NCBI RefSeq assembly: GCF_000716445.1
Contig: NZ_JNWK01000073.1
Span: 1 to 32,937, forward strand
Direction of reading: 5' to 3'
DNA from: Streptomyces wedmorensis
GTDB lineage: Bacteria; Actinomycetota; Actinomycetes; Streptomycetales; Streptomycetaceae
Length of the DNA stretch: 32,937 nt
Shown here in pieces: positions 5,038 to 30,848 of this stretch; position 1 is the first letter of the stretch; the number at the start of each line of letters is the position of its first letter. The notes below the pieces were generated by a model that saw only the letters and a list, made by a program, of their open reading frames with translations, ran no database searches and had not been told where the DNA came from. The position numbers were made by a program, and so were the translations under genes.

Positions 5038-6149
5038 GCCGGCTGCCTTTCCGTGTTCCGCTCGCTTGTGGGGGTGCCGACGCCGAGCGCGGACGCGTAG
5101 GCCCGCTCGATGACACCGATGGTCGTCCTGGTGGCCGCGATGGACCGGCCGCGGAGGCCGGGGTCGGCCAGGAGGGCGGGGAGCGCGTCGACCTGCCGGT
5201 CGTACTCGACTCCCACGGGCTCCGGGTCGAGCGGGACGGGGACGGTCTCCCCGTGCCGGGTGACGGTGAGCGTGGAGCCGCCCCGCCGGTTGGGGCTGAA
5301 GCCGAACGTGCACGAGAGCACGGCGGTGCCGGCGGTGCCGTGCACCTCCACGAGGGTGGTGTCGTACTCGGCGTGGGACGCCCAGCTGGCGTGTACGGAG
5401 ACGGAGACTCCGTCGTCGGTGACCAGGAACGCGCGAGCCGTGTCCTCCACGTCTCCGGTCCCTCCCGGGGCCGGCTCGTCCTCTTCCCGCCAGGCAGCCT
5501 GGGCCACGTCGCGGTTGACGAAGTCGTGTCCGACCGTCGCCGCCACCTGCTCGAACTCCACCCGGCCGCCCAGCAGGGGCAGGGCGGTGTCGAGGAGGTG
5601 CCAGCCGAGGTCCACCAGGGCTCCGCCCCCGGCGGTGTCCCGGCGGGTGAACCAGCGGGTGCCGGGAACGCCTCGGGCCCGTTCCCACGCCACCCGGACG
5701 TGGCGGATCCGGCCCAGGGACGGGGTGAGGTCCTCAAGGCGCCTGATGTCGCCCCGGTAGCGGGCGGCGCTGCCCGCGACGAGGACCGCGCCCGCCTTCT
5801 CCGCCTCTGCCAGTTCGTCCGCCTCGGCCGTGCTGAGGCAGACGGGCTTCTCCAGGAAGACCGGGATGCCCCGGCGGAGCAGGCCCGAGGCGACGGAGCA
5901 GTGGGCGTGGTTGGGAACGGCGACGATCGCGAGGTCGGCCAGGTCCGGCGTCAGTTCGGCGGCCGAGGCCAGGACGCGCGGCGCGGGACCTCCCGCGCCG
6001 ACGGCCGGCTCTTCCGCGAACGCGGCCCGGGCCGCCGGGGAGGGGTCCACGACGGCGGTGACGGTCATGCCGGGGTGGGCGGCCACCCGGGGCAGCCAGA
6101 TGCTGCGGGCCGCCCAGCCCAGGCCGACCACGGCGACGCGCAGGGTCAT
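5034..6149 (-). CDS. rifL: Gfo/Idh/MocA-family NAD(P)-dependent oxidoreductase, RifL-like
   Basis: 371 aa from an ATG overlapping the AHBA synthase stop (ATGA). The N-terminal Rossmann motif is VAVVGLGWAARSIWLPRV. FLEKPVCLS carries the EKP motif typical of Gfo/Idh enzymes, and DLGWHLLDTALPLLGG carries the conserved His of the C-terminal domain. Known role of RifL: partner of AHBA synthase in oxidising the 3-position of UDP-glucose so that AHBA synthase can transaminate it to UDP-kanosamine. Adjacency to AHBA synthase, with 4-bp overlap, fits that partnership. No signal peptide or membrane segment is seen, so it is cytoplasmic. Confidence 0.92.
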   Translation of the reverse strand: MTLRVAVVGLGWAARSIWLPRVAAHPGMTVTAVVDPSPAARAAFAEEPAVGAGGPAPRVLASAAELTPDLADLAIVAVPNHAHCSVASGLLRRGIPVFLEKPVCLSTAEADELAEAEKAGAVLVAGSAARYRGDIRRLEDLTPSLGRIRHVRVAWERARGVPGTRWFTRRDTAGGGALVDLGWHLLDTALPLLGGRVEFEQVAATVGHDFVNRDVAQAAWREEDEPAPGGTGDVEDTARAFLVTDDGVSVSVHASWASHAEYDTTLVEVHGTAGTAVLSCTFGFSPNRRGGSTLTVTRHGETVPVPLDPEPVGVEYDRQVDALPALLADPGLRGRSIAATRTTIGVIERAYASALGVGTPTSERNTERQPA

Positions 6150-7312
6150 GAAGTGGCCAGGACGTCGGCCACCACGTCCGCGATGGCGTGCATCTGCTCC
6201 TCGGTCCCGAGCAGGGTCCGGTGGTGCAGCCAGATGCAGTCGCGGGTGAGGGCCTCGCTGTTGGGGCATCGGGCGGCGATCTCGTCGACGGTCTCGTCGG
6301 GCGCGGCCATCTCCCAGAAGGCGGCGGTGCGGTAGACGGCCCGGAAGGCCGCGAACGCCGGAAGGCCGCGCGCGATCAGCGCGTCGACCAGGGCGTTGCG
6401 CCGCTCCTCGGTGATGCCGGGGACCCGGAACATGGCCATGTAGTGCGGGTTGCGCGTGCAGCGGTCGTCGGTGCCCTGCGGCACGACTCCGGGGATCCGG
6501 GCCAGCAGACCCGACAGCAGCGGCCAGCGCTCCTGGCGGGTGGCGATCTGCTCGTCGAGCCTGGTGAGCTGGGCGCGGAGCACGCTCGCGGAGAACTCGT
6601 TCATGCGGAAGTTGGAGCCCGACGTCTCGTGCAGGTACGAGCGGTCGGTCCGCGGGCGGCCGCAGCTGTGCCGCAGGAAGGCGAGTTCGTACTGGGCGGC
6701 CTCGGGGAACGTCACCGCGCCGCCCTCGCCCGCGGTCATCAGCTTGCCGTTCTGGAAGCTGAAGGCCGCGACGGAGCCGAGGTCGCCGACCCGCTTGCCC
6801 CGCCACTCGGCGCCGTGCGCGTGCGCCGCGTCCTGGAGCAGCGGGACGCCGGAGTCGGCCGACAGCTTGGCGAGCGCGTCCATGTCGGCGAGGAGGCCGG
6901 CCATGTGGACGGGCATGATCGCCTTGGTCTTCGGGGTGATCGCGGCTTCCGCGGCCCGCACGTCGATGTTGTACGTGTCGAGGTCGACGTCCACGGGGAC
7001 GGCGACGGCGCCGAGACGCTGGGCGGCCTGCGAGGAGGAGATGAAGGTGAAGGCGGGAACGATGACCTCGTCGCCGGGCCCCACTCCCATCACCTGAAGG
7101 GCGAGTTCGAGGGCGTGGGTGCCGCTGGTCACCGCGAGGGCGTGTGCGGTGCCGTGGTACTCGGCGAATTCGCGCTCGAATTCGTCGACTTCACTTCCGC
7201 CGATACGCCACCACTGCCCCTGTTCGAGGGCGCGCATCAGAGCGACTCTTTCCTGGTCACCGAACTGGGGCCACTCCGGAAATTCCAGGCTCCGCTGCGA
7301 AATCCCAAACAT
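6146..7312 (-). CDS. rifK: 3-amino-5-hydroxybenzoate (AHBA) synthase
   Basis: 388 aa, the usual length for AHBA synthases, a branch of the DegT/DnrJ/EryC1 aminotransferase fold. The PLP-binding Lys is Lys190 in SFQNGKLMTAGEGGAV. VTSGTHALELAL, VPAFTFISSSQ and LLQDAAHAHGAEW are cofactor- and substrate-binding stretches. Family knowledge: the enzyme aromatises aminodehydroshikimate to AHBA and, with the RifL-type oxidoreductase, also makes UDP-kanosamine. It is the accepted marker of ansamycin and mitomycin clusters. It is first in the minus-strand operon AHBA synthase - oxidoreductase - phosphatase - aminoDHQ synthase - PKS. The ATG start at 7312 is preceded by only a weak SD (GGATGG). Confidence 0.96.
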   Translation of the reverse strand: MFGISQRSLEFPEWPQFGDQERVALMRALEQGQWWRIGGSEVDEFEREFAEYHGTAHALAVTSGTHALELALQVMGVGPGDEVIVPAFTFISSSQAAQRLGAVAVPVDVDLDTYNIDVRAAEAAITPKTKAIMPVHMAGLLADMDALAKLSADSGVPLLQDAAHAHGAEWRGKRVGDLGSVAAFSFQNGKLMTAGEGGAVTFPEAAQYELAFLRHSCGRPRTDRSYLHETSGSNFRMNEFSASVLRAQLTRLDEQIATRQERWPLLSGLLARIPGVVPQGTDDRCTRNPHYMAMFRVPGITEERRNALVDALIARGLPAFAAFRAVYRTAAFWEMAAPDETVDEIAARCPNSEALTRDCIWLHHRTLLGTEEQMHAIADVVADVLATS

Positions 7313-7663: not shown

Positions 7664-8101
7664 TTGAGTGAACTCCTGTTGTTGAACGGGCCAAATCTGG
7701 GAATACTCGGCCGCCGGGAGCCGGAGATCTACGGCACCGAAACCCTGGCCGACATCGAGCGGATCGTCGCCGAGGAAGTCGCGGAATCCGGGTGGAAAGT
7801 GGTGGCCCGCCAGTACGACTGCGAAGGGGAGATGGTCCGCGCCGTCCAGGACAGCTACGACACGGTGGGCGCGATCATCAACCCGGGCGCGCTGATGATC
7901 GCCGGCTGGAGCTTCCGGGACGCGCTCGCCAACTACCCCAAGCCGTGGATCGAGGTCCACCTGTCCAACGTGTGGGCGCGCGAGGGCTTCCGGCACCAGT
8001 CGATCCTCGGCGCCCTGGCAAGCGGCGTGATCTTCGGCCTGGGCGCCGAGGGGTACCGGCTCGCCGCCCAGGCCCTGGTCCGGCGAGGCGTCACGGGATG
8101 A
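7664..8101 (+). CDS. rifJ: Aminodehydroquinate dehydratase (type II dehydroquinase family), RifJ-like
   Basis: 145 aa, the length of type II dehydroquinases. The start is TTG, supported by GAGG six nt upstream; no in-frame ATG or GTG fits better. Signature stretches: LLNGPNLGILGRREPEIYG with the catalytic Tyr, NPGALMIAGWSFRDAL, IEVHLSNVWAREGFRHQS with the catalytic His and Arg. It dehydrates aminodehydroquinate to aminodehydroshikimate, the substrate of AHBA synthase. It is divergent from the AHBA synthase operon and overlaps the following monooxygenase by 4 bp (ATGA). A housekeeping AroQ is formally possible, but the context argues against it. Confidence 0.92.
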   Translation: MSELLLLNGPNLGILGRREPEIYGTETLADIERIVAEEVAESGWKVVARQYDCEGEMVRAVQDSYDTVGAIINPGALMIAGWSFRDALANYPKPWIEVHLSNVWAREGFRHQSILGALASGVIFGLGAEGYRLAAQALVRRGVTG

Positions 8102-9723
8102 GCGGCACGAGCTCCACCACCTCCGCCGGCCGCCCTCACCCCGACGCCGCCGACGTCCTCGTCGTCGGGTACGGGCCGGTCGGCCAGGTCCTGGCGATCC
8201 TGCTGGCCCGGCAGGGCCGCCGGGTGACGGTCGTCGAGCGGTGGGAGACCCCGTATCCGATGCCGCGCGCCACCGTCTTCGACGGCGAGACCGCGCGCAC
8301 CCTCGCCTCCCTCGGGATCGCCTCCTCGTTCGAGGAGATCGGCGAGCCCGTCGACGCGTACGACTGGCGGAACGCCGCCGGGCGGACGCTGCTGCGCATG
8401 GAGTTCGCCGCCCCCGGCGCGCACGGCTGGCCGGACGCCACCACCTTCCACCAGCCGGCGCTCGAAGCGGCGCTCGCCGAGCGTGCCGCCGAGTTCGAGG
8501 ACCGGGGCCTGCTGCGCGTCCTGCGCGGGCACACCGCGACGGCCGTCGAGGACCACGGCGACCACGGCGTGACCCTCACCGCGGAGACCGCCGCCGGCGA
8601 CGTCAGGACCCTCGAGGGAGCCTGGCTGGTCGGCTGCGACGGGGCCAACAGCCGGATACGGGACCTTCTGGACGTCGGCGTCACCGACCTCGACTTCTCC
8701 TTCGACTGGCTGCTCTGCGACGTCGTCCTGGGCGAGCCCCGGGAGTTCACGCCGGCCAACGCGCAGATCTGCGACCCGGCCAGGCCGACGACGGTCGTCG
8801 GGAGCGGCCCCGGGCGCAGGCGCTGGGAGTTCATGCGGCTGCCGGACGAGTCCAAGGAGGAGCTCGACACGCCCGAGACGGCCTGGCGCCTGCTCAAGTC
8901 CTTCGACGTGACCCCGGAGAACGCGGTCCTCGCCCGGCACACCGTCTACACCTTCCGTGCCGCCCTGGCCGACACCTGGAAGAAGGGCCGGGTGCTGCTC
9001 GCGGGTGACGCCGCGCACTCGATGCCGCCGTTCGCGGGCGCCGGGATGTGCTCGGGCATCCGGGACGTCCTCAACCTGTCCTGGAAGCTCGACCGAGTCC
9101 TGCGGGGCGCATCGGACGCGCGGCTCCTCGACACGTACGGGCCCGAGCGCCGCGGCCATGTGCTCCGCACGATCGAACTGTCCGTACAGCTCGGGAAGAT
9201 CGTCTGTGTCTCCGACGCGGAGGAGGCGGCCCGCCGGGACGCCACCCTGACGGCGGGCCAGACGCCGGACCGCCCGGTGACGCAGCCGCTGCGCGAGGGC
9301 GTGCTGCACCGCACGGTCGGCACGGTCGCCGCGCCCCCGACCGGCTCGCCGGTCCCCCAGGGGCGGGTGGCGCGGGACGGCGTCGCCGGGCTCTTCGACC
9401 AGGTGGTGGGCACGGGCTTCGTGCTCCTCACCACGGAGGACCCGGCCTCCGCGCTGAGCGCGGAACAGCGCGCCCTCCTCGCGGAGATCGGCGCCCACAC
9501 GGTCAGGCTCGCCTCCGGCACGGAGCCGGCGGCGGGTGCGGTCACGGACCTCGACGACGTGTACCTCCCGTTCATGGCCTCCGTCCGGGCGCGCTTCGTC
9601 CTCGTCCGGCCCGACTTCCACGTCTTCGGGGTCGCCCGCAGCACGAGGGAACTCGGCATGGTCCTCGACCAGTTGGAGACCCAGCTCATGACGACGGGAG
9701 CGGGCCATCCACCTCGGCATTGA
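8098..9723 (+). CDS. FAD-dependent aromatic-ring monooxygenase (MhpA / PheA-TfdB type)
   Basis: 541 aa. FAD-binding motifs of class A flavoprotein hydroxylases: DVLVVGYGPVGQV (GxGxxG) near 20, WLVGCDGANSRIRDLL (DG motif) near 180, and GRVLLAGDAAHSMPPFAGAGM (GD motif) near 300. The C-terminal part has the thioredoxin-like tail of this group, ending in FVLVRPDFHVFGVARS. Ansamycin clusters often carry such an enzyme near the AHBA genes (for example rif-orf19, gdmM), where it hydroxylates the aromatic ring and helps form the quinone or naphthalene system; I infer a similar tailoring role here. Start overlaps the upstream stop (ATGA). The stop lies inside the reading frame of the next gene. Confidence 0.85.
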   Translation: MSGTSSTTSAGRPHPDAADVLVVGYGPVGQVLAILLARQGRRVTVVERWETPYPMPRATVFDGETARTLASLGIASSFEEIGEPVDAYDWRNAAGRTLLRMEFAAPGAHGWPDATTFHQPALEAALAERAAEFEDRGLLRVLRGHTATAVEDHGDHGVTLTAETAAGDVRTLEGAWLVGCDGANSRIRDLLDVGVTDLDFSFDWLLCDVVLGEPREFTPANAQICDPARPTTVVGSGPGRRRWEFMRLPDESKEELDTPETAWRLLKSFDVTPENAVLARHTVYTFRAALADTWKKGRVLLAGDAAHSMPPFAGAGMCSGIRDVLNLSWKLDRVLRGASDARLLDTYGPERRGHVLRTIELSVQLGKIVCVSDAEEAARRDATLTAGQTPDRPVTQPLREGVLHRTVGTVAAPPTGSPVPQGRVARDGVAGLFDQVVGTGFVLLTTEDPASALSAEQRALLAEIGAHTVRLASGTEPAAGAVTDLDDVYLPFMASVRARFVLVRPDFHVFGVARSTRELGMVLDQLETQLMTTGAGHPPRH

Positions 9724-10606
9724 CATCGGCGGCACGAAGGTCGCCTTCCGCACGGAGACGTCCGGGACCCGCGGCGCGGCGTCGCGGGATTCCGTGGTCC
9801 GCTGGCGGTCGTCCGCCGGTCTCCCGGAGGACCTGGACACCCTGCGGGCCCACGTGGAGGAGCTCCTGGCCCGTGCCGCACGGCCGCTCGCGGGGGTCGG
9901 TGTCGCCGTGCCTGCCACGCTGGACGCCGCGGGGCGGGTGACGGCCTGGCCCACCCGGCCGTCCTGGGTGGGGCTCGACCTGTCGGAGGTCTTGCGGGAC
10001 CTCTTCCCCGGATCCGAGGTGTCCTGGGCCGACGACGGAGACCTGGCCGCCGTGGCGGAGGCCCACGCGGCCGGTCACTCCGACCTGGTCTACGTGGGCG
10101 TGGGCACCGGCATCGGCGGCGGGATCGTCCTCGGCGGCCGGCCCGTGCCCGGTACGCGCCGGGGGTCGTGCGAGCTGGGACACCTGATCGTGGACCGGGA
10201 CGGCGAGCTCTGCGACTGCGGCCGCCGCGGCTGCGTCCAGGCCGAGGCGTCGGGCCCGGCGACGCTGCGCCGGGCGGCGGCCGCGCGCGGGGCGGAGGTG
10301 ACCTTCGAGGAGCTCAGGGCCGGGTACGCCGACGGTGCGGACTGGGCCGTCACCGCGGTCGAGCACAGTTGCGCGGCCCTCGCGGCCGCCCTGGTGGGGG
10401 CGGGCGAGCTGGTGCACCCCTCGGCGACGGTCGTGGGCGGCGGGTTCGCCGCGGGGATCGAGGGCTTCGTGGCGGAGGTCGCCCGGCAGGCGGCCATGCT
10501 GGCCAGGCCGGGACACCCGGTGGCCCCCGTCCTTCCGGCCCGGCTCGGCGGCGGTTCGTCCCTGCACGGGGCGCTGCTCGCCGCCAGGGGACTGCCGAAC
10601 CCCTGA
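9707..10606 (+). CDS. rifN: ROK-family sugar kinase, kanosamine kinase RifN-like, with non-canonical start
   Basis: About 299 aa if initiated at ATC 9707. The ATP-binding motif LGIDIGGTK is encoded from 9713, but the frame is closed by TGA at 9689 and has no ATG, GTG or TTG before GTG 9794, which would delete the motif. ATC 9707 follows GGGAG (9696-9700) by 6 nt, ideal SD spacing; ATT 9719 is another possibility. Further ROK features: VGVGTGIGGGIV, ELGHLIV with the metal His, and the zinc motif CDCGRRGC. The catalytic Asp region reads ADDGDLAAV. Family role: phosphorylation of kanosamine to kanosamine-6-phosphate for aminoshikimate synthesis. The gene overlaps the monooxygenase end by 17 bp. 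A sequencing indel is the alternative explanation for the start. Confidence 0.85.
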   Translation: MHLGIDIGGTKVAFRTETSGTRGAASRDSVVRWRSSAGLPEDLDTLRAHVEELLARAARPLAGVGVAVPATLDAAGRVTAWPTRPSWVGLDLSEVLRDLFPGSEVSWADDGDLAAVAEAHAAGHSDLVYVGVGTGIGGGIVLGGRPVPGTRRGSCELGHLIVDRDGELCDCGRRGCVQAEASGPATLRRAAAARGAEVTFEELRAGYADGADWAVTAVEHSCAALAAALVGAGELVHPSATVVGGGFAAGIEGFVAEVARQAAMLARPGHPVAPVLPARLGGGSSLHGALLAARGLPNP

Positions 10607-10671: not shown

Positions 10672-11301
10672 TCAGACGAGCTGGACGGCCTGCTCGTAGT
10701 CGTGGCGCGGCATCCGCTCGCCCCAGGCGTCCTCGGCGGGCTCGCCGATGTTGACCAGCAGGATCGCCTTCCAGCGCCCGTCGGGGAAGAACTCGGTGTT
10801 CACCGCCTCGGCGTCGAAACCCTTCATCGGCCCGGCGGCCAGACCCGCGGCACGTACCGCGAGGACGAAGTACCCGGCCTGCAGGGCGGCGTTGAAGTCG
10901 CCGGAGGCGTCACGCAGGACGGGGTTGGAGTCGAGGACGTCCTTGAGTCCGGGGATGCTGGGGCACAACTCGGCGCCGTACTCGCCGTATTCACGGTCCA
11001 CCGCAAGCACCGCGATGACGGGCGCGGAGGCGCTCTTGGGCTGGTTCGGCGGGGTGAGCAGGGGGACCAGCCGCTTCTTCCCCTCGTCCGTGCGCACGTA
11101 GAGGATCCGCATCGGGTTGAGGTTGCTGCCGGTGGGCGCCCACTTGAACAGTTCCCAGATCGCCCGCAGCCGCTCGTCGTCGACCGGCGCGTCGGTGAAC
11201 TTGAGGGCCGTGCGGGCCTCGGTGAACAGCAGCCGCTGCCCCTCGGGGGACAGCGCGTAGAGGTCCTGGTGTTCGACAGGGGAGGTCATGTCGTTCGGCA
11301 C
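10672..11301 (-). CDS. Nitroreductase-family flavoprotein (RutE / malonic-semialdehyde-reductase type)
   Basis: 209 aa from GTG 11301; ATG 11289 (205 aa) is an equal alternative, as neither has a strong SD. Typical of this FMN-binding branch are FTEARTALKFTDAPVDDERL, WAPTGSNLNPMRILYV, and AAGLAAGPMKGFD with DGRWKAILLVNIGEP near the end. The family reduces nitro groups, enones or semialdehydes with NAD(P)H. It is read together with the upstream shikimate/quinate dehydrogenase (47-bp gap) and lies within the AHBA block, so a role in aromatic precursor or ansamycin tailoring is possible. I know of no established step for it in AHBA synthesis. Confidence 0.8.
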   Translation of the reverse strand: MPNDMTSPVEHQDLYALSPEGQRLLFTEARTALKFTDAPVDDERLRAIWELFKWAPTGSNLNPMRILYVRTDEGKKRLVPLLTPPNQPKSASAPVIAVLAVDREYGEYGAELCPSIPGLKDVLDSNPVLRDASGDFNAALQAGYFVLAVRAAGLAAGPMKGFDAEAVNTEFFPDGRWKAILLVNIGEPAEDAWGERMPRHDYEQAVQLV

Positions 11302-11348: not shown

Positions 11349-12200
11349 TCATGACAGCTCCGCCCGCTCGGGGGCGTCCAGCCGGAAGAACTCGCGGTAG
11401 AGGTCGAGTTGGTGAATGAGCATGTGCGAACCGTGATGGATCCGGTGGCCGCGCGCCTCGGCCGCCCGCAGCAGCGCGGTCTCACGCGGTTCCATGATGA
11501 TGTCGGCGACCGCCGCCCCTGACGGGAGGCCCTCCACGTCGAACGGCAGCGGGTCGTCGGGGCGCAGGCCGAGCGGGGTGGCGTTCACGACGAGGTCCGC
11601 GCCGTCGAGCCGTGGGGTAACCGTTCCGGCCAACCGGCCCGGCCAGTAAGGCCCGAGACGGTTCGTCACCTCGGTCACCCGGTCCTCGTCGCGGTCGCAC
11701 ACGTCGAGGTGGGCGGCTCCGGCGGCGAGCACGGCGGCGGCCAGGGCGCCTCCGGCGCCGCCCGCGCCGATCAGGGACACGCGCTTCCCCGCGAGGTCGA
11801 ATCCGGAGGCGCTCAGCCCCCGGACGAACCCGATGCCGTCGAAGTTCTCGGCGCTCCACCGGCCGTCGGGCTCCCGGCGCAGCGCGTTGGCGCTCCCGGA
11901 CTGGGTGACGGCGCCGCTGACGGTGTCGGCGAACCGGCGGACGTCGGCCTTGTGCGGCACGGTGACGAGCAGCCCGTCGAGGTTGCCGATCCGCTGGAGC
12001 CCTCGCACGATCTCACCGAGGTGCTCGGGCTCGGCGAGCACCGGCACGAGGACGGCGTCGAGGCCGAGGCGGGAGAAGACGGGATTGAGCAGCGCGGGCG
12101 CCTTCACCTGGGCGACCGGGCAGCCGAGGACGGCGTAGAGCCGGGTCGAGCCGCCGATCCCGGGCCGCTCGGGCATCGGTGGTGTCGCTGGAGTGGTCAC
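11349..12200 (-). CDS. rifI: Shikimate/quinate dehydrogenase family, RifI-like aminoquinate dehydrogenase
   Basis: 283 aa from GTG 12200, preceded by GGAAGGAA. Family signatures: catalytic Lys in LLVTVPHKADV, Asp in AENFDGIGFVRGL, Rossmann loop VSLIGAGGAGGALAAAVL, and LVVNATPLGL. In AHBA clusters RifI interconverts aminodehydroquinate/aminodehydroshikimate with reduced forms, a side branch that is not essential for AHBA. The substrate-binding motif, normally HSxSP, reads QVKAP: the two Ser that usually bind the shikimate carboxylate are Val and Ala. It is the first gene of a two-gene minus-strand unit with the nitroreductase and marks the right edge of the AHBA block. Confidence 0.88.
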   Translation of the reverse strand: MTTPATPPMPERPGIGGSTRLYAVLGCPVAQVKAPALLNPVFSRLGLDAVLVPVLAEPEHLGEIVRGLQRIGNLDGLLVTVPHKADVRRFADTVSGAVTQSGSANALRREPDGRWSAENFDGIGFVRGLSASGFDLAGKRVSLIGAGGAGGALAAAVLAAGAAHLDVCDRDEDRVTEVTNRLGPYWPGRLAGTVTPRLDGADLVVNATPLGLRPDDPLPFDVEGLPSGAAVADIIMEPRETALLRAAEARGHRIHHGSHMLIHQLDLYREFFRLDAPERAELS

Positions 12201-12367
12201 ACGGCTTCCTTCCACTGGGGTCGGTGCACCTTTCGACGGCCATCCTGGCAGTCCTGACCACGGCGGTGCGGGGCGGCCGAGGCCGTGCCTCCGGAGCGAC
12301 GCTGGGTACGGTGGGCGAGGAAGTCCCCGGCTCGGAGGGGTCCCCTGGCGGAAAGGGAAGGTGCGCG

Positions 12368-13048
12368 GTGATCGAGGCGCTGCTGCCGGAGAGCGTGGTC
12401 GCGGTCGAGGGCTACGGCCACACCGCCCTGGACGCGGAGCTGTACCCCGAGGAGGCTGCGCTCGTGAGCCGGGCGGTCGACAAGCGGCGCCGGGAGTTCG
12501 CGGCGGTACGGGTCTGTGCGCGTCGGGCGATGGCGAAGCTCGGCCTGCCGCCGCAGCCGGTGCTGCCGGGCGAACGGGGTGCGCCGGACTGGCAGCCGGG
12601 GCTGGTCGGAAGCCTGACGCACTGCGACGGTTACCACGCGGCCGCTCTGGCGCTCAGCGCCGACGTCGCCTCGCTGGGCATCGACGCCGAGCCGGCCGCC
12701 CCGCTGCCCGAGGGCGTGCTGGAGCTCGTGGCCCTGCCGGCGGAGCGCGACCGGCTGAGCCGGCTGGCCGCGGAGCATCCGGGGATCCCCTGGGACCGGT
12801 TGCTGTTCAGCGCCAAGGAGGCGGTCTACAAGGCGTGGTCGCCGCTGACCGGGAAGTGGCTGGATTTCTCCGAGGCCGATGTCGAGATCTCCGTGGATCC
12901 CGGTGGGCAGCCGTGCGGTGGGTTCCGTGCCGGGCTGCTCGTGCCGGGTCCGCGGGTGGGTGACCGCCGGCTCGACGGGTTCGAGGGCCGCTGGACGAGC
13001 CGGCAGGGCTTCGTGGCGACGGCCGTCACGGTCCCGTACCCCGCTTGA
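12368..13048 (+). CDS. Sfp/EntD-type 4'-phosphopantetheinyl transferase
   Basis: 226 aa from GTG 12368; the SD is AAGG, about 6 nt upstream. Motifs of the family: GLVGSLTHCDGYHAAAL (P1-like), SLGIDAEP with Mg-binding Asp-x-Glu, and LLFSAKEAVYKAW with the Glu and Lys of the (W/F)SxKEaxYK motif. It transfers phosphopantetheine from CoA to the Ser of carrier proteins. It sits exactly between the ansamycin and the uridyl-peptide parts, both of which need it (PKS ACPs, free PCP, and the PCPs of the A-PCP, C-PCP and A-PCP-TE proteins). It is divergent from the dehydrogenase gene across a 167-bp gap. I see no SsaA-type box there, only a half-site. Confidence 0.92.
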   Translation: MIEALLPESVVAVEGYGHTALDAELYPEEAALVSRAVDKRRREFAAVRVCARRAMAKLGLPPQPVLPGERGAPDWQPGLVGSLTHCDGYHAAALALSADVASLGIDAEPAAPLPEGVLELVALPAERDRLSRLAAEHPGIPWDRLLFSAKEAVYKAWSPLTGKWLDFSEADVEISVDPGGQPCGGFRAGLLVPGPRVGDRRLDGFEGRWTSRQGFVATAVTVPYPA

Positions 13049-13063
13049 CCGGACCGTCCGGAT

Positions 13064-13109
13064 CTCCTGACCGCTGTCAGTACGTGTGCGGCGGGGGGCC
13101 GCGTAATCT
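13064..13109 (+). promoter_or_regulatory. SsaA-type operator (site 1) with -10 element, upstream of the phosphoesterase gene
   Basis: CTCCTGACCGCTGTCAGTAC (13064-13083) matches the consensus GTMCTGACA-N2-TGTCAGKAC at 16 of 18 defined positions. TAATCT (13104-13109) starts after exactly 20 bp. Transcription would start near 13116, about 47 nt before the ATG at 13163. Confidence 0.75.
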
Positions 13110-13162: not shown

Positions 13163-13993
13163 ATGACGCCTACGCTCCTGAAACTCGCGACGTGGAACAT
13201 CGGGGGCGGGATTCTCGGTGAGTCGCATCAGCACGACGGAATTCCGTCACTCGGCCATTACGCCTCGGTGTTGGAGGCACACGCGCCCGACGTGGTCTGT
13301 CTGCAGGAGGCGCATGACTACCACGGGCGCCGGGAGGACCAGGCGACGGAACTGGCCAGGCGGGTCGGGTATCCGCATGTCGCGTCCTTTCCGGTGAGCG
13401 TCTCGCACATGGCGCGGGACGCCTCGCTGGCGCTCGGAATCCTGTCGCGTTTCCCCCTCGACGACGTGGTGTTCAAACGGTTTCCCAATCCCGGCCTCGA
13501 GGGTTCGGGACCGGGCGGCGGGCGCTGGACGCTGCACGACAAGGGCTATGCGGTCGGGTCGTTGGACCTGGGCGGCGGCCGGCGGCTCGGCTTCGTGAAC
13601 GGGCACTGCTTTCCGCTGCGCCGCTTCGGGGCGAGTCCCGCCGATCCGGTGTTCGCGCCGATGTGGGAGATGCTCGCGGAGGACCTGCGGGAGATCGGCC
13701 GTACGGGGATGGCCTTCGCGGGCGTCGACGCGAACTACGGGCGCTTCGGGGAGCTGCTGGGCGACGTCATGGGCGCGGGCGGCTACCGAAGCGCGTTCGA
13801 AGGGACTCCCACGACGGCCAAGGGCGTCCAGAACGACCACGTTCTCTACGGCCGTGCGCTGCGGCTGCTGAGTACGACGGTGGCGGCCACGGAGTCCGAC
13901 CACGCGTACTGCCAGGTGCGCGTTCAGGTGGAGGCCGGGGGTGCCGGCGACGGCGGCATGATCCTGACCGGTGTCAGTACAGGCCCCTCCTGA
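13163..13993 (+). CDS. Endonuclease/exonuclease/phosphatase (EEP) family phosphoesterase
   Basis: 276 aa from ATG 13163, chosen over GTG 13148 because GGAGGA (13150-13155) stands 7 nt before it. All metal and catalytic positions of the DNase-I-like fold look intact: LATWNIGGG (Asn), VVCLQEAHD (Glu), FAGVDANYGRF (Asp-x-Asn), VQNDHVLYG (Asp) and ESDHAYCQVRV (Asp-His). No signal peptide. The family includes nucleases, phosphodiesterases and nucleotidases. Because it is controlled by its own SsaA-type box in a nucleoside antibiotic cluster, plausible roles are releasing uridine from UMP or another nucleotide, removing a phosphate from an intermediate, or self-protection; the sequence does not decide. 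The last codons contain the operator for the next operon. Confidence 0.85.
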   Translation: MTPTLLKLATWNIGGGILGESHQHDGIPSLGHYASVLEAHAPDVVCLQEAHDYHGRREDQATELARRVGYPHVASFPVSVSHMARDASLALGILSRFPLDDVVFKRFPNPGLEGSGPGGGRWTLHDKGYAVGSLDLGGGRRLGFVNGHCFPLRRFGASPADPVFAPMWEMLAEDLREIGRTGMAFAGVDANYGRFGELLGDVMGAGGYRSAFEGTPTTAKGVQNDHVLYGRALRLLSTTVAATESDHAYCQVRVQVEAGGAGDGGMILTGVSTGPS

Positions 13994-14075: not shown

Positions 14076-14357
14076 ATGAGTCCACAGAATCAGATGGCGC
14101 CGGATCGCGTTGCGGCTCTGACCCAGATCTGGCGGGAGGTTCTCGGAAATCCCGAACTCGACGAGAGCTCGGACCTCTTCGAGAACGACGGGTCGTCGCT
14201 GCACGTCCTGCAGATCACCGGCAGGATTCACGACGCCCTCGGGGTCGACGTGAAACTGCGCCACGTGTTCTCCCACGCTTCGCCGCGCAGCCTTTCGGAT
14301 TTCCTGGAAGGCGAGCCGGGGCAGGTGGATTCCGGTGCGGACGGCGCCCGCTCCTAA
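14076..14357 (+). CDS. pacH: Free-standing peptidyl carrier protein, PacH-like
   Basis: 93 aa; SD GAGGAG about 8 nt before the ATG. A single carrier domain: IWREVLGNPELDESSDLFENDGSSLHVLQI, where the first Ser of SSL in DGSSLHVL is the phosphopantetheine site (DGSS replaces the usual GGxS), then a helix ending LRHVFSHASPRSLSDFL. A free PCP is one of the dissociated NRPS parts of uridyl-peptide clusters, where the growing peptide chain is built on trans-acting carriers. It begins the operon PCP - C domain - MbtH, in the same order as pacH-pacI-pacJ. The C-terminal tail of about 15 residues is probably disordered. Confidence 0.87.
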   Translation: MSPQNQMAPDRVAALTQIWREVLGNPELDESSDLFENDGSSLHVLQITGRIHDALGVDVKLRHVFSHASPRSLSDFLEGEPGQVDSGADGARS

Positions 14358-14389: not shown

Positions 14390-15661
14390 ATGACGTTCTC
14401 CCAGGAAAAGGGATCGGCGGGGCCGACCTCGCTGGCGGAAATGGCCCGGCTGACGGGCGAGTTCGCCGACTGGCACAACCTGCACTACATGGCGATGTGG
14501 CTCACCGGCGACCTCGACGTCGCCGCGCTGCGCGACGCCTGGTGGCGGGTGTGCCTGCGCCACGACGTACTGCGCCGCGCCTACCTGTCGCCGGAGGAGG
14601 CGTGCACGTACGACGACGCGCTGAGCGAGGTGCAGGTCCTCACCGCCGACACGGACGCGGAGGCCGTCGAGCTGATGGGCCGCTTCATCGGCGAGCCCTT
14701 CAGCCTGGACGGCCGCGGCTTCTCGCGCATCGCCGTCGTGCGGCGTGACGAGCGCAGGCACCTCTTCGGCATCGCGATCGACCACATCATCAACGACCTG
14801 GCCTCGTGGGCCCGGATCCGGTCGGACTTCACCGAGTTCTACAACCGGGCGCTGGCCGGCGACACCGGCGACGTGTCGGGCGCGAGCAGCTACCAGGCCT
14901 TCGCCTCGGAGGAGCGCCGGCTGTTCTCCGGCTCCTGGGGAGCGGAGCGGCGGGCCTTCTGGGGCTCGTACGTCGAGGAGTTCGGGACGGTCCCGGCGCC
15001 GTTCCCCGTCGGCACCGAGCACGCGGGCGAGTACCGGCCCAAGAGGATCGCCCGGGCGCTTCCGGCGGACGCGAAGGCCCGGTTGCGGCGCTTCGCCCTG
15101 GAGGCCCGGGCGACTCCCTTCGCCGCGGTCACGGCCAGTGTGCTCGCCGCGGCGCGTGAGGTCACCGGCGAACCCGCGCCGGGGATCTCCGTCAACCAGC
15201 ACGGGCGCATGCTGCCGGGCACGTCGCAGACCGCCGGTCTGTTCGTGCAGACCGTGCCGCTGCACCTCGGGCGGGAGCGCGGTGACCGGGTCGGGACGGT
15301 CCGCGAGGTGTTCCTCCGGACCCACGACGTCTTCGAGTACAGCATTCCGCTGCTGGTCGCGGGACGGTACTGGAACGAGACGCTGATGGTGCCGGACCGG
15401 CAGGCCGGCCTGTACGTCAGCCTCAACGAGGAGCCGCCGTCCTCGTACGACCTGGCGCCGTTCACCGGTACCGAGGCGGAGTACGTGGAGTTGGACGTCC
15501 CCGGCGGGAAGCGCTTCCTGGAGACCGTGGTCGTCGGGTGGAACCTGTACGAGACGGGGCCGGAGATCGTCGCGCACTACAACGAGAGCTGCTTCCCCGG
15601 CGCGGCCGTGGAGCAGCTCCTCGACGCGGCCGAGGCGTTCGCACTGCCCGCGGGTGACTAG
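14390..15661 (+). CDS. pacI: Free-standing NRPS condensation domain, PacI-like
   Basis: 423 aa; the SD GGAGGTG stands directly upstream of ATG 14390. One complete C domain and nothing else. The active-site motif HHxxxDG appears as DHIINDL: the first His is Asp and the last Gly is Leu, but the catalytic second His and the Asp are kept. Other family positions include LRRAYLSPEE, ISVNQHGRMLPGTSQTAGLFVQTVPL and the SLNEEP region. In the pacidamycin system a free C domain of this kind is thought to release the peptide by joining it to the 5'-amine of the nucleoside; I infer the same here from operon position, and the divergent motif fits an unusual acceptor. Confidence 0.87.
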   Translation: MTFSQEKGSAGPTSLAEMARLTGEFADWHNLHYMAMWLTGDLDVAALRDAWWRVCLRHDVLRRAYLSPEEACTYDDALSEVQVLTADTDAEAVELMGRFIGEPFSLDGRGFSRIAVVRRDERRHLFGIAIDHIINDLASWARIRSDFTEFYNRALAGDTGDVSGASSYQAFASEERRLFSGSWGAERRAFWGSYVEEFGTVPAPFPVGTEHAGEYRPKRIARALPADAKARLRRFALEARATPFAAVTASVLAAAREVTGEPAPGISVNQHGRMLPGTSQTAGLFVQTVPLHLGRERGDRVGTVREVFLRTHDVFEYSIPLLVAGRYWNETLMVPDRQAGLYVSLNEEPPSSYDLAPFTGTEAEYVELDVPGGKRFLETVVVGWNLYETGPEIVAHYNESCFPGAAVEQLLDAAEAFALPAGD

Positions 15662-15672
15662 GAGGGGATTCC

Positions 15673-15882
15673 GTGTTCGACGACGAGACGCGCGCGTTCC
15701 GTGTGGTGCGGAACGACGAGGAGCAGTACTCGGTCTGGCCGGTCGGGCGGGAGCTGCCCGCCGGCTGGTCCGAGGCCGGGAAGCGGGGCACGAAGGCCGA
15801 GTGCCTCGCCCATGTCGACCGTTCCTGGACGGACCTCCGGCCCGCGAGTCTGCGGCGGAGCCCGTCCGTCGACGAGGGCTAG
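15673..15882 (+). CDS. pacJ: MbtH-like protein, PacJ-like
   Basis: 69 aa from GTG 15673, 8 nt after AGGAGGGG. Carries the MbtH signature NDEEQYSVWP and the conserved Trp positions in LPAGWSEAGKRGTKAECLAHVDRSWTDLRP. These small proteins bind the large subdomain of NRPS adenylation domains and are needed for their solubility or activity. Likely partners here are the A domains of the A-PCP protein at 17506-20049, the A-PCP-TE protein at 22536-25079 and the free A domain at the window end. It is the third gene of the PCP - C - MbtH operon; an 11-bp gap separates it from the C domain gene. Confidence 0.93.
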   Translation: MFDDETRAFRVVRNDEEQYSVWPVGRELPAGWSEAGKRGTKAECLAHVDRSWTDLRPASLRRSPSVDEG

Positions 15883-16075: not shown

Positions 16076-17407
16076 ATGACTTCTTTCACCGGGGCCTTCT
16101 GGCGCAGGGGCGACACCGGGTTCGCCGACGCCGCGACCTCACGCCTCTTCAACCACCGGCTGCCGTCGAGGCGGCCGGCGGCGGTGCTGCGCGCGGCGGA
16201 CGCCGCCGATGTGGCGGCGGGAGTGCGGCTGGCGGCGGCGGAGGGGTGGAAGGTCGCCGTCCGCTCCGGCGGGCACAGTTGGCCCGCGTGGTCACTGCGC
16301 GAGGACACCCTGCTCGTCGACCTGGCGCTGTTCACCAGGATGGCGTACGACCCGGCGGACGCGACGGTCGCGGTCGGTCCGGCGGTGCGCGGCGGTCTCG
16401 ACCTCGACCCGTACCTCGCGGAGCACGGCCGGTTCTTCTCCGTGGGCCACTCCCCCACCGTGGGCATGGGCGGCTTCCTGCTGCAGGGCGGCATCGGGTG
16501 GAACTGCCGCGGCTGGGGCTGGGCCGCGGAGTCCGTCGAGTCCATGGACGTGGTCACGGCCGCGGGCGACCTCGTGCGGTGCTCCGAGACGGAGAACGCC
16601 GACCTGTTCTGGGCCGCGCGGGGCTCGGGTCCCGGCTTCTTCGGCGTGGTCACCGAGTTCCGGCTCCGCACCCGCCCCCGGTTCCGGGAGCTGACGCGGT
16701 CCACGTACGTGTACCCCGCCGACCTCGCTCCCGAGGTCCTGACCTGGTATCTGTCGGCGCGCCGCGAGGTGCCGCCGTCGGTCGAGCTCGCCGCGGTCGG
16801 CTGCACTCCGCCCGGCTGCGACGCTCCGGTGCTGATCGTCGACGCCGTGTCGTTCGACGGCGGGCCGGCCTCGTCGGCCGCGCTCGACACCTGCCCGGTG
16901 GTCGGGAAGGCGTCGGCCGCCACCGTCGCCCGGCCGGTGGGGTTCGCCGAGCTGCAGGCGGCGCAGCTGCGGGCCAACCCCGACTACCACCGCTACTTCG
17001 CGGACAACGCCTTCCTCACCGGTTCCGCCTCCGAGCTGGTCCCGGCGCTGGTGCCCGCCTTCGTCGACCTGCCGACGCCCAGGACGTTCACCGTCCTCGG
17101 CGACTTCACGCCCCTGCGGTCGCGCCGGACGCCGGACATGGCCCTGTCCGTGGGGACCGACCTGTACTTCGCCGCGTACGTGATCGGCGAGGCCCCGGAG
17201 GAGGACGCGCGGTGCCGTGCGTGGCTGGACGGCACCATGCGCCGCGTGGCCCCCGTCTCCGCCGGCTGCTACCTGGGGGACAGCGACCTGACGGTCCGGC
17301 CCGACCGGATCATGTCCGACGCGGCCTGGTCGCGGTTCCGGCGGATCCGTGCGGACCGTGACCCGGACGGGTTGTTCGTCGGCTACCTCGGCGCGCCCGC
17401 CCAGTAG
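16076..17407 (+). CDS. pacK: BBE-like FAD-linked oxidase, PacK (Pac11)-like uridine 5'-oxidase
   Basis: 443 aa from ATG 16076; GGGGA stands 10 nt upstream, and TTG 16070 is an alternative. The FAD_binding_4 / berberine-bridge-enzyme fold is clear: His67 in AVRSGGHSW is the residue that carries 8-alpha-histidyl FAD, followed by SPTVGMGGFLLQGGIGWNCRGWGWAAES and, near the C terminus, the NPD-like stretch in ADRDPDGLF. The position of the second covalent link in bicovalent members (Cys of CPTVG) is Ser126, so only one covalent bond is expected. In pacidamycin the homologue oxidises uridine to uridine-5'-aldehyde, the substrate of the Pac13 cupin encoded at 20091-20456. Gene order after MbtH matches pacJ-pacK. 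Confidence 0.87.
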   Translation: MTSFTGAFWRRGDTGFADAATSRLFNHRLPSRRPAAVLRAADAADVAAGVRLAAAEGWKVAVRSGGHSWPAWSLREDTLLVDLALFTRMAYDPADATVAVGPAVRGGLDLDPYLAEHGRFFSVGHSPTVGMGGFLLQGGIGWNCRGWGWAAESVESMDVVTAAGDLVRCSETENADLFWAARGSGPGFFGVVTEFRLRTRPRFRELTRSTYVYPADLAPEVLTWYLSARREVPPSVELAAVGCTPPGCDAPVLIVDAVSFDGGPASSAALDTCPVVGKASAATVARPVGFAELQAAQLRANPDYHRYFADNAFLTGSASELVPALVPAFVDLPTPRTFTVLGDFTPLRSRRTPDMALSVGTDLYFAAYVIGEAPEEDARCRAWLDGTMRRVAPVSAGCYLGDSDLTVRPDRIMSDAAWSRFRRIRADRDPDGLFVGYLGAPAQ

Positions 17408-17505: not shown

Positions 17506-20049
17506 TCAGAGCAGCTGCGCGAGCTCGGCGACGGTCGGGTTCCGGACCAGCGCCTGGGCCCTGAGTTCCACGCCGAGTTCGGTGCGGATCCTCGACCTCA
17601 GCCGGGTGGCGAGCAGCGAGTCGCCGCCCAGGGAGAAGAACCCCTCGTCGATGCCGACCCGTTCGAGGCCCAGGATCTCGGCGAAGACGGCGCACAGCCG
17701 GTGCTCCTCGGGCGTGCTGGGGCCGCGGCCGGTGCCGCCGCCGTAGTCGGGTGCCGGGAGGGCCCGGCGGTCCAGCTTGCCGTTCGGCGTCAGGGGCAGT
17801 TCCGTCAGCGTGACGAAGGCGGAGGGCACCATGTACGCGGGCAGGGTCCTGCCGACCTGCTCGGCCAGGGCCGCCGGGTCCGGGGTCCGTCCGGCGGCCG
17901 GCACCACGTACGCCACCAGGCGCTCGTCGCCCGGCTGGTCCTGCCTGACGATCACCGCGACCCGCGCGACCCCGTCCTGCCGGGCCAGGGCGGTCTCGAT
18001 CTCGCCGAGTTCGATGCGGTAGCCGCGTACCTTGACCTGGTCGTCGGTGCGGCCCACGAACATCAGGACGCCGTCGCGGGTCCAGCGGGCCAGGTCCCCC
18101 GACCGGTACATCCGGGCGCCGACGCCGTGGAACGGGTCCGGTACGAACCGCTCCGCGGTCAGCGCCGCGTTGCCGAGGTAGCCGCGGGCCAGGCCCTCGC
18201 CGCCGAGGTACAGCTCGCCGACCGTGCCGGGCGGCACCGGGTCGAGGTGCTCGTCCAGGACGTACACGCGCCTGTTGTCCATCGGCTTGCCGATGGGGAC
18301 GTCGCCCGTCAGCAGGTCCGCCCGTTCGACGCTGTGGTGGGTGACGCACAGCGTGGCCTCGGTGGGCCCGTACTGGGGGTGCACGACGAGGCCGGGAGCC
18401 GCTTCGAGTGCCTTGCGCACCGCGACCGGGGAGATCACCTCGCCGCCCATGTACACGCGGAGCATGCCGGTGAAGGCCGCCGCCGAGTCGTCGGCGATGC
18501 TGCGGAAGAGTCCGCCGGAGAGCAGGGCGCCGGTCACGCCGTGGCGTGCGACGAGGTCCTTCAGGCCCTGTGCGTCCAGGTCACCGGGCGGCGCGATCAC
18601 CAGCTGCCCGTTCCTGAGCAGCGGCAGCCAGATCTCGCCCGTCGACACGTCGAACGCGAGCGGCGAGTGCACCAGCATCCGCGCCGCGGCCGCCTCGTCC
18701 CAGGAGCTGTCGAGCACCATGCACACGGCGCTCCGGTGGGACACCAGGATGCCCTTGGGGACTCCGGTCGAGCCCGAGGTGTACATGAGGTACGCGGCCT
18801 GCTCGGGCAGCGGCGCGCGGTCGGGGCTGCCGGTGGTCGCCCCCGCGGAGTCGTCCGCGGTGACGAGGAGGGTGGTCGTGGCGCCCCGCGCGGCCTCGTG
18901 GTGGGCGTGGGTCGTGTCGGTCAGCAGGATCCGGGCGTCCGCGGCCGCCATGACGCCGAGCATGCGTTCCGCCGGATGGGCCAGGTGCAGGGGCAGGTAG
19001 CAGCCGCCGGCCTTGAGGACGGCGAGCACCGCGACGATCTGCTCCGCGGACCGGTCCATCAGGATGGCCACCGGCTCCTCGGTCCGGATGCCGGAGCCGA
19101 TCAGCCGGTGGGCGAGCGCGTTGGCCCGGGCGTCGAGTTCGGCGAGGGTCAGCGACACGTCGCCGCACACCAGCGCCACGGCGTCCGGTGTCTCCAGGAC
19201 GCGGGCCTCGAACCGCCGGACCAGCGTGGCCTCGCCGATCTCGCGCTCGGCGCCGCTCGACGTCTCCAGCCAGGCCTTGCGTTCCCCGGCGGACAGCAGC
19301 TCCACGCGGGACAGGGCGGTGTCCGGTGCGGTGGTGAACGCCGTCAGGAGCAGGACCAGACGGTCCGCGAGCGAGACGGCCGTCGCACGGTCGAACAGGT
19401 CGGTGTCGTAGGCGATCTCGCCCGCGATCCCCGCCGGCTCCCGGTCGTCCCGCCGGCGCTCGGTCAGGGTGACGGCGAGGTCGAAGGCGGACGGGTCCGT
19501 CGTGCCGGCCTCGGACGCGGTCTCGTCGTCGACGACGACGCTCACCTGGACCAGGCGGCTCCGGCCGGCGTACGGGGCGAGGTCGACGATCTCGGCCAGC
19601 CGCTCCGCGGGCACGTCGTGCGCCGCGCGCGCCGCGTCCTCGGCCTCCCGCACGCGGTCGAGGAGTGCTCGTGGGCTCGGGTCGCCCGAGGCGTCGATCC
19701 GGACGACGAGGTGACGGGCGAGGAACTCCGCCGCGTCGCCCCGCGGCACGCCGGGTCGCGCCGCGGCCGGAGCCGCGATCGGGATGTCGGTGCCGGCCCC
19801 CAGCCGGGTCAGCAGGGCGGCCGCGGCGGCCCGGACCGTCGTCCCCACCGTCGCCCCGGCCTCCCCGGCCGTCGCGAGAAGGGCCCGGTGGACCTCGGGA
19901 GCGATGTCGAACCGGTGCGACCCGCTCACCGAGGAGGCGTGCGCCGGTCGCGGACGATCCGTCGGCAGGGCCAGTTCGTTCGGTAGCGACGCCAGAGTGC
20001 GCGCACAGCGCTCCGTGAGCGGTGCGGCCTCGTCCGTGGTCGTCGACAT
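17506..20049 (-). CDS. pacL: NRPS: condensation-domain remnant, adenylation domain, PCP (PacL-like)
   Basis: 847 aa from ATG 20049 with SD GGAGGA. Residues about 30-260 resemble the C-terminal half of a condensation domain and its linker, without an HHxxxDG motif. A complete A domain follows (about 275-750: AYLMYTSGSTGVPKG near 420, YGPTEATL, YRSGDLARW, GRTDDQVKVRGYRIELGEIE, NGKLDRRAL), then a PCP (EGFFSLGGDSLLATRL, Ser near 811). Pocket residues read by hand against PheA: D-V-G-L-Y-G-Q-L-C; I cannot name the substrate from that. It is the last gene of the minus-strand operon C-PCP - cupin - A-PCP, corresponding to pacN-pacM-pacL. Uridyl peptides need A domains for aromatic residues and Ala; this is one candidate. 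Confidence 0.88.
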   Translation of the reverse strand: MSTTTDEAAPLTERCARTLASLPNELALPTDRPRPAHASSVSGSHRFDIAPEVHRALLATAGEAGATVGTTVRAAAAALLTRLGAGTDIPIAAPAAARPGVPRGDAAEFLARHLVVRIDASGDPSPRALLDRVREAEDAARAAHDVPAERLAEIVDLAPYAGRSRLVQVSVVVDDETASEAGTTDPSAFDLAVTLTERRRDDREPAGIAGEIAYDTDLFDRATAVSLADRLVLLLTAFTTAPDTALSRVELLSAGERKAWLETSSGAEREIGEATLVRRFEARVLETPDAVALVCGDVSLTLAELDARANALAHRLIGSGIRTEEPVAILMDRSAEQIVAVLAVLKAGGCYLPLHLAHPAERMLGVMAAADARILLTDTTHAHHEAARGATTTLLVTADDSAGATTGSPDRAPLPEQAAYLMYTSGSTGVPKGILVSHRSAVCMVLDSSWDEAAAARMLVHSPLAFDVSTGEIWLPLLRNGQLVIAPPGDLDAQGLKDLVARHGVTGALLSGGLFRSIADDSAAAFTGMLRVYMGGEVISPVAVRKALEAAPGLVVHPQYGPTEATLCVTHHSVERADLLTGDVPIGKPMDNRRVYVLDEHLDPVPPGTVGELYLGGEGLARGYLGNAALTAERFVPDPFHGVGARMYRSGDLARWTRDGVLMFVGRTDDQVKVRGYRIELGEIETALARQDGVARVAVIVRQDQPGDERLVAYVVPAAGRTPDPAALAEQVGRTLPAYMVPSAFVTLTELPLTPNGKLDRRALPAPDYGGGTGRGPSTPEEHRLCAVFAEILGLERVGIDEGFFSLGGDSLLATRLRSRIRTELGVELRAQALVRNPTVAELAQLL

Positions 20050-20090
20050 GCCATCCTCCATCCAAGTGGTAGTGATGCCCGGCAGCGGCA

Positions 20091-20456
20091 TTAGTCGGGG
20101 CTCTCGCTCTCGCTGATGAACCTGACGTGCCGTTCGTCCCGTTCGTCGAACGCGGGCGCCACCGTGAGAACCATCTCCATCGCGCCGAAATAGAAGATCC
20201 GGGTGTTCGGCGGGACGGTGATCAGGTCGGTGGCGCCGACGGCGACCGGCTCGCCGTTCAGGTGGAACACGCCCCGACCGCTGACGATGTAATAGGTGTA
20301 GGAACTCCTGGTGTTGAGGAATTCCTGGAAATGTCCTCGCTCGACGTTCACGCGCACGACGGTCGCCGCCGGGTCGTCCTGGCCGTAGACCGTCAGGTCG
20401 ATGCCGTGCTTGTGGAATCTGTCGGCTTCCTCGACCGTGTGCCGGTACGTGGTCAT
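20091..20456 (-). CDS. pacM: Small cupin nucleoside dehydratase, Pac13 (PacM)-like
   Basis: 121 aa, the length of Pac13. From family knowledge, Pac13 is a small monomeric cupin that removes the 3'-hydroxyl of uridine-5'-aldehyde by dehydration, with His42 as catalytic residue. Here residue 42 is His, in NVERGHFQEFL. Other recognisable stretches are EADRFHKHGIDLTVYGQ, SSYTYYIVSGRGVFHLNGE, DLITVPPNTRIFYFG and, at the C terminus, DERHVRFISESE. Start ATG 20456 with SD AGGAGGG. It lies between the C-PCP and A-PCP genes (gaps of 19 and 41 bp), in one operon. This gene, with the flavin oxidase, is the best single proof that the right half makes a 3'-deoxy-4',5'-enamino uridine peptide. Confidence 0.95.
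   Translation of the reverse strand: MTTYRHTVEEADRFHKHGIDLTVYGQDDPAATVVRVNVERGHFQEFLNTRSSYTYYIVSGRGVFHLNGEPVAVGATDLITVPPNTRIFYFGAMEMVLTVAPAFDERDERHVRFISESESPD

Positions 20457-29795: not shown

Positions 29796-30848
<1,053 letters not shown>

Follow-up and report, generated by a model that had tools for sequence, protein, structure and literature searches.

The window, i.e. the whole stretch of DNA that was analysed (32,937 bp), is the complete contig C73 of the Streptomyces wedmorensis genome (9.38 Mb, 259 contigs, completeness 99.99%, contamination 0.11%), and it breaks off inside a polyketide synthase (PKS) gene on the left and inside an adenylation-domain (A-domain) gene on the right. Its left part carries ansamycin (AHBA) genes and its right part those of a uridyl peptide antibiotic (UPA) cluster (Table 1), with a gap of exactly 167 bp between the divergent genes rifI (GTG start at 12200, minus strand) and a phosphopantetheinyl transferase (PPTase; GTG start at 12368, plus strand), whose start codons both agree with those of the nearest database proteins. 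The preliminary description of this DNA had reported seven AHBA genes and an AHBA-loading PKS to the left of the gap, a pacidamycin-type cluster 167 bp away to its right, and a junction devoid of mobile elements. The left side was borne out by Pfam assignments and gene order, the right side by a Pac13 cupin, a PacK-type oxidase, an MbtH protein, a free peptidyl carrier protein and dissociated condensation, adenylation and carrier proteins, and no transposase or integrase family was found by Pfam among the 35 open reading frames of the window that were scanned. The repeats flanking the junction are short and weak with the exception of one operator pair (repeat finder), and scans for promoters and terminators found none.

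Table 1. Features of contig C73, from left to right, with the evidence on which each assignment rests
Feature	Position	Strand	Basis
Start of ansamycin PKS (AMP-binding, KR, ACP, then KS), broken by contig end	3..3173	-	Pfam
rifG-like aminodehydroquinate synthase	3284..4333	-	Pfam DHQ_synthase; gene model
rifM-like HAD phosphatase	4330..5037	-	Pfam
rifL-like GFO/IDH oxidoreductase	5034..6149	-	Pfam
rifK-like AHBA synthase	6146..7312	-	Pfam PF01041
rifJ-like type II dehydroquinase	7664..8101	+	Pfam
FAD-binding aromatic monooxygenase	8098..9723	+	Pfam, NCBIfam
rifN-like ROK kinase (real start possibly further upstream)	9794..10606	+	Pfam
Nitroreductase / malonic semialdehyde reductase family gene	10672..11289	-	Family matches; adjoins rifI in NRRL 3413 and G341 too
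rifI-like aminoshikimate dehydrogenase, last ansamycin gene at junction	11349..12200	-	Pfam; homologues
Junction gap, divergent rifI / PPTase	12201..12367		167 bp, exact
Sfp/PptT-type phosphopantetheinyl transferase	12368..13048	+	Pfam; outside UPA operator array
SsaA-type operator, first of UPA half (TAATCT 20 nt later)	13064..13083	+	Consensus scan; repeat finder
Endonuclease/exonuclease/phosphatase family gene (UPA phosphatase)	13163..13993	+	Pfam; homologues
SsaA-type operator	13961..13980	+	Consensus scan; repeat finder
Free-standing peptidyl carrier protein	14076..14357	+	Pfam PP-binding
Free-standing condensation protein	14390..15661	+	Pfam
MbtH-like protein	15673..15879	+	Pfam
PacK/Pac11-type FAD-linked oxidase	16076..17407	+	Pfam FAD_binding_4
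NRPS: truncated condensation, adenylation, carrier	17506..20091	-	Pfam
Pac13/PacM cupin dehydratase	20091..20456	-	phmmer to Pac13 structures
NRPS: condensation domain and carrier-like C-terminus	20476..22161	-	Pfam condensation; C-terminus judged by eye
Two SsaA-type operators, divergent promoter region	22222-22241 and 22349-22368		Consensus scan
NRPS: adenylation, carrier, thioesterase	22536..25079	+	Pfam
Argininosuccinate-lyase-like enzyme (putative diaminobutyrate route)	25076..26572	+	Pfam, NCBIfam
GHMP-family kinase (putative diaminobutyrate route)	26569..27492	+	Pfam
PLP-dependent SbnA-like synthase fused to ATP-grasp domain	27512..29779	+	Pfam, NCBIfam
Threonine-aldolase-family PLP enzyme	29796..30848	+	Pfam, NCBIfam
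SsaX/PacX-type phenylalanine 3-hydroxylase (m-tyrosine)	31184..32026	-	Pfam Biopterin_H
C-terminal end of A-domain gene, broken by contig end	32834..32937	-	Duplicate of C95 copy

The set of AHBA genes (rifG-N) is complete in the source genome, with seven members on C73 and rifH (DAHP_synth_2) on a further contig, C82. Since the genome holds a single strong copy of the rifK-like AHBA synthase, C82 was regarded as carrying the far end of this ansamycin cluster. Besides RifH, C82 encodes a PKS module ending in an ACP, a RifF-type NAT, a zinc-binding dehydrogenase, a KSIII, a thioesterase, a LuxR regulator and a second PPTase beside a metallophosphoesterase. Both the AHBA-loading PKS (C73; homologues 63% identical in Streptomyces viridochromogenes NRRL 3413 and 65% in the genome G341) and the RifF-type amide synthase (C82) are present, and they would belong to one cluster if the two contigs join as presumed. 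In comparison with rifamycin-type clusters (rif gene set as given in the accessible text of PMC8788734) the locus has in common rifG, I, J, K, L, M and N (C73) together with rifH (C82), the AHBA-type loading PKS, the RifF-type NAT and the LuxR regulator, and it differs in that rifG-M-L-K are divergent from rifJ-monooxygenase-N, that a nitroreductase gene adjoins rifI, and that a KSIII and a zinc-binding dehydrogenase are encoded on C82. The latter dehydrogenase is probably crotonyl-CoA-reductase-like, and the two genes may contribute an unusual extender unit. In the pathway that we propose, the eight AHBA genes would furnish the starter, the loading module of the PKS would activate it, and the RifF-type amide synthase would close the ansamycin macrolactam.

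The right half of C73 shows the hallmarks of a UPA cluster (i.e. an m-tyrosine hydroxylase, putative diaminobutyrate genes and a dissociated NRPS with MbtH), the kinase, lyase and PALP genes being those that we take to serve diaminobutyrate synthesis. It resembles the pacidamycin, napsamycin/mureidomycin and sansanmycin clusters in its Pac13 cupin, PacK-type oxidase, class III aminotransferase, phenylalanine 3-hydroxylase, MbtH, dissociated NRPS, nuclease/phosphatase gene and SsaA-type operators. The PacK-type oxidase is 81-86% identical to its homologues in G388, G338 and NRRL 3413, and the 121-residue cupin matches Pac13 structures over 120 residues (phmmer, E 3e-64), with retention of K16, H42, Y55, Y89, F103 and E108, which are Pac13 residues named in the accessible text of PMC5656905 (structure entries there: 5OO4, 5OO5, 5OO8 and 5OOA). 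Two 39-nt ssaX primer stretches (sansanmycin), printed in PMC4858918, match the hydroxylase gene, one of them exactly and the other with a single mismatch, and the UPA phosphatase may correspond to SSGG_02980 in the mureidomycin cluster (PMC10714638, as far as its accessible text goes).

More UPA genes are found on contig C95, among them one for a class III aminotransferase (Aminotran_3; PacE-type by family and synteny). Over 114 bases the right end of C73 shares 98.2% identity with the end of the C95 A-domain gene (C95:21175-21288), and over 165 bases the right end of C95 itself shares 99.4% identity with the start region of this A-domain gene; a duplicated A-domain is, on these sequence overlaps, the most likely cause of the break between C95 and C73. 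Among 15 proteins encoded within or near the UPA cluster of NRRL 3413, 10 find their match on C95 (two A-domain genes, a methyltransferase, the aminotransferase, a TauD-family gene, an MFS transporter and four that belong to no Pfam family) and one, the phosphatase, on C73, while the remaining 4 of the 15 (n07 and n12-n14, i.e. a 453-residue protein and three from the right margin) had no match on C73, C95 or C82 at E <= 1e-20. Conversely, the NRRL 3413 stretch 152,000-241,766 contained no match (E <= 1e-20) to a 161-residue ORF of C73, to the PPTase or to the pacX-type hydroxylase, although the last nearly matches sansanmycin ssaX. We considered whether the left flank of the UPA genes in NRRL 3413 was ordinary chromosome and rejected this, as most of its genes also stand beside UPA genes in G388 and on C95 in the source genome. 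The order of the UPA genes differs here from that in NRRL 3413 and G388; in particular, the phosphatase sits at the cluster edge behind its own operator, with the ansamycin cluster beyond, whereas in NRRL 3413 it lies inside the cluster. As for the product, PacK, Pac13 and the class III aminotransferase would yield a 3'-deoxy-aminouridine and the dissociated NRPS proteins a pseudopeptide, giving a uridyl peptide antibiotic of the pacidamycin/sansanmycin/mureidomycin class and, as would be expected of it, an MraY inhibitor.

In the mureidomycin cluster, five promoter regions have conserved SsaA sites according to the accessible text of PMC4572928. A scan with an SsaA consensus (<=3 mismatches) predicted 4 operators on C73, all in the UPA half (shuffled-sequence control, mean 0.00), and the repeat finder recovered one pair of them (13065 / 13962) without any consensus. 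The first of the four begins 15 bp past the stop codon of the PPTase gene, and the edge of the UPA cluster is, on this prediction, near 13064, downstream of the PPTase. Elsewhere in the source genome there are 3 such operators on C95 and 0 in the C82 stretch; in NRRL 3413 there are 6 in the stretch of contig C36, all within the UPA cluster, and 0 on C266, the contig of its AHBA genes. Furthermore, the stretches with UPA genes in G388, G235 and G338 contain 4, 4 and 2, respectively, and 35 other AHBA loci (631,017 bases) contain 0. Several operators are followed after about 20 nt by a hexamer such as TAATCT, a spacing that fits activator-dependent promoters, and an SsaA-type activator would act through these dedicated UPA sites; no FHA or LuxR-type domain, as sought for an SsaA/PacA-type activator gene, was found among the UPA genes scanned. 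The operator at 13064 resembles the one at C36:188363 in NRRL 3413, which stands upstream of an A-domain gene whose counterpart is on C95 in the source genome, and this likeness is a further sign of reshuffling within the UPA cluster. Since none of the predicted UPA operators falls in the AHBA half, shared regulation finds no support in the sequence, and separate regulation of the two halves is predicted.

The PPTase had been described as the gene that opens the right side and is usable by both pathways. Its position was confirmed, and its use by both pathways is possible; its membership of the UPA cluster was rejected, both by synteny (in G816, G388, G235 and G338, four relatives that carry UPA genes, the best match sits elsewhere, beside a metallophosphoesterase gene) and by the operator array, which begins only at 13064, downstream of it. 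In five relatives the best match is 68-71% identical and lies outside both clusters, next to a neighbour gene that is similar in all five (a metallophosphoesterase in the one checked). No such PPTase/metallophosphoesterase locus was found in the source genome besides the more distant pair near RifH and RifF (C82:16168-17675; PPTase 56% identical), and the PPTase of C73 may, by inference from these neighbourhoods, be the displaced ordinary PPTase of the species.

The occurrence of the two cluster types was followed in a draw of 392 genomes of the genus, with the UPA phosphatase (E <= 1e-20) and the AHBA synthase (E <= 1e-130) as markers. The phosphatase was present in 6 genomes and the AHBA synthase in 38, and only the source genome had both at the limits used. 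PacK-type UPA genes were seen, in the window or in fetched stretches, in 4 of the 6 phosphatase-positive genomes (G388, G235 and G338 besides the source), and pacK itself (E <= 1e-150) was found in 296 relatives and 394 genomes of the family only in the source genome; among plasmid records, one carried a relative that is 41% identical. UPA clusters thus look rare. On the AHBA side, 35 of 41 other places were fetched (the six most distant being left out); the core order N-monooxygenase-J|K-L-M-G-pksA recurred in 1 of the 35 (G341), and 0 of the 35 showed, within the fetched stretch, a match at E <= 1e-20 to the UPA phosphatase, the free condensation gene or PacK. The fetched stretch of G341 contains the AHBA core and no UPA gene, and G388 has the UPA core with no AHBA synthase at E <= 1e-130.

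Both clusters are present in S. viridochromogenes NRRL 3413, on different contigs. This genome was reached through its PacK, and the scan of named genomes returned two loci, a number probably limited by the use of two peptide patterns. The AHBA synthase on its contig C266 is 86% identical to that of C73, and the gene order there is the same (pksA-G-M-L-K|J-monooxygenase-N-nitroreductase-rifI). C266 extends 14.8 kb past rifI through genes for a thioesterase, a LuxR regulator, a two-component pair, a P450 and an SNF2 helicase, and its matches to C73 are AHBA-side genes only, apart from an A-domain hit of 27%. The UPA cluster occupies about 170-202 kb of C36, the nearer end of which is 40 kb away; together with the extent of C266, this distance places at least 40 kb between the UPA genes and any gene of C266, and a minimum of about 53 kb between them and rifI. 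The gene that follows rifI in both NRRL 3413 and G341 encodes a thioesterase, and the best DNA match in the source genome to that of NRRL 3413 is on C82. The pattern that the preliminary description named as speaking against its observation, with each cluster alone elsewhere and the same edge genes, was found in part: in G341, G388 and NRRL 3413 a cluster of either kind stands without the other beside it, and the nitroreductase-rifI edge is kept in NRRL 3413, but the phosphatase, the UPA edge gene on C73, is internal to the cluster there.

The divergence of the two halves was compared through fourfold-site identity, computed from codon alignments for one genome pair (the source genome and NRRL 3413; G338 was left out). 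It amounted to 69.1% for 12 UPA genes on C73 (1,955 sites), 68.9% for 7 UPA genes on C95 (763 sites), 66.5% for gyrB (203 sites) and 55.5% for 9 AHBA-side genes (940 sites), with the qualifications that fourfold sites near 55% are possibly partly saturated and that the single-gene ranges overlap (49-79% for the UPA genes, phosphatase and methyltransferase being lowest, and 42-62% for the AHBA side). In this pair the halves do not diverge in parallel, and the values (69.1% and 55.5%, set against 66.5% for gyrB) argue for separate histories.

Taken together, these observations favour (with a probability of about 0.77) two independent clusters that came to abut through a rearrangement. The locus most likely brings together clusters of two known kinds in a neighbourhood that is unusual but can be explained. 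The rearrangement would account for the rifI-thioesterase order of two relatives and for the presence of the thioesterase counterpart on C82, and the UPA cluster would itself have been reshuffled relative to its relatives. This agrees with one of the readings offered at the outset, namely that of two neighbouring clusters, as each occurs elsewhere without the other beside it and their regulation is predicted to be separate. Against it counts the fact that NRRL 3413, although found through its UPA genes, carries the same rare AHBA block, and co-occurrence of the two cluster types may be above chance. That the junction is instead a chimeric contig of the draft assembly would be in keeping with the 259 contigs and with the thioesterase, in place of the PPTase, after rifI in two relatives; we regard it as very improbable in view of the lack of a strong repeat at the junction, the ends of C73 at expected break points (a PKS gene and a duplicated A-domain), the high completeness and low contamination, and the listing of both edge genes on a contig of the same length (650,459 bp) in Streptomyces sp. 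LMG1-1-1.1. Least credible of all, and here rejected, is the proposed single hybrid pathway that joins AHBA or an ansamycin to a uridyl peptide: adjacency and the carrier proteins in each half are compatible with it, yet each half has most of the starter or precursor, assembly or loading, and release genes expected of it (the ansamycin side its own RifF-type release, RifH and loading module), the UPA genes of C95 resemble clusters without AHBA neighbours, and other genomes with either cluster do not have the other beside it.

A co-inherited supercluster of two antibiotics was also put forward in the preliminary description. In its full form, selection for co-inheritance would keep an ansamycin and an MraY inhibitor together, with the PPTase common to both. 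Among the matches listed, the cluster nearest to RifI (93%, 6 members) and the second nearest to the UPA phosphatase (78%) are both from LMG1-1-1.1, a strain on which no paper was found, and both are given with a contig of 650,459 bp; the equal length and the shared strain name indicate that its RifI and UPA phosphatase are located on one contig. In a 9.5-Mb genome, chance alone would put a second locus on a contig this large with a probability of roughly 7%, and the linkage may be older than the source genome. Adjacency in the source genome and the presence of both clusters in NRRL 3413 speak in the same direction. Weighing on the other side are the different contigs of NRRL 3413, the unequal fourfold-site divergence of the halves, the restriction of SsaA-type operators to the UPA half, and the finding of both markers in 1 of 392 genomes; moreover, the identities of 93% and 78% in LMG1-1-1.1 would argue against strict co-inheritance, with the reservation that the phosphatase is among the faster-changing UPA genes. 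We hold a conserved supercluster to be unlikely, although linkage may persist in a small clade. A version in which a clade around this species, including LMG1-1-1.1, keeps the two clusters linked as a two-target supercluster, with the PPTase between them and the UPA half evolving or exchanged separately from the AHBA half, appears similarly unlikely. The cephamycin C and clavulanic acid supercluster is alike in that two antibiotic pathways are adjacent in one Streptomyces; as far as the partly accessible accounts of it go, the present locus differs in having no shared operator, no matching divergence and one relative with the clusters on different contigs.

No description of an ansamycin/UPA pairing was found in the literature searched, which covers a minority of the subscription journals. 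Under the favoured reading of two independent clusters, C73 offers a single strain in which a UPA and an ansamycin cluster are both present and clearly delimited from each other, and cluster-calling software may merge the two into one 'hybrid' cluster. If the linkage in LMG1-1-1.1 is close, the pair would become a test case for the co-selection of antibiotics with different targets.

Several minor observations were made in the course of the comparisons. The genomes G007 and G104 (loci L049 and L050) have the phosphatase, a Pac13-like cupin and a PacX-like hydroxylase with no PacK in the fetched stretches (in G007, no pacK match at E <= 1e-150), and contig C78 of G235 (L051) has the phosphatase, a Pac13-like cupin, MbtH and an A-domain, again with no PacK within the stretch; these three stretches possibly represent a related nucleoside-peptide cluster type. 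AHBA synthase genes (E <= 1e-80) are also present in 11 Streptomyces plasmid records (H22-H32). A shorter S. wedmorensis phosphatase (P0299) matches half of the query at 96% identity, and the tail of this protein is similar to the reading frame just upstream of pacK on C73 (about 15975-16050), a similarity that suggests a deletion within the UPA cluster of that strain. Lastly, G341 (L052, L102-L104), whose genome is in two contigs and shares the AHBA core of C73, has a PKS of at least 8 KS motifs and is well suited as a reference for the ansamycin product.
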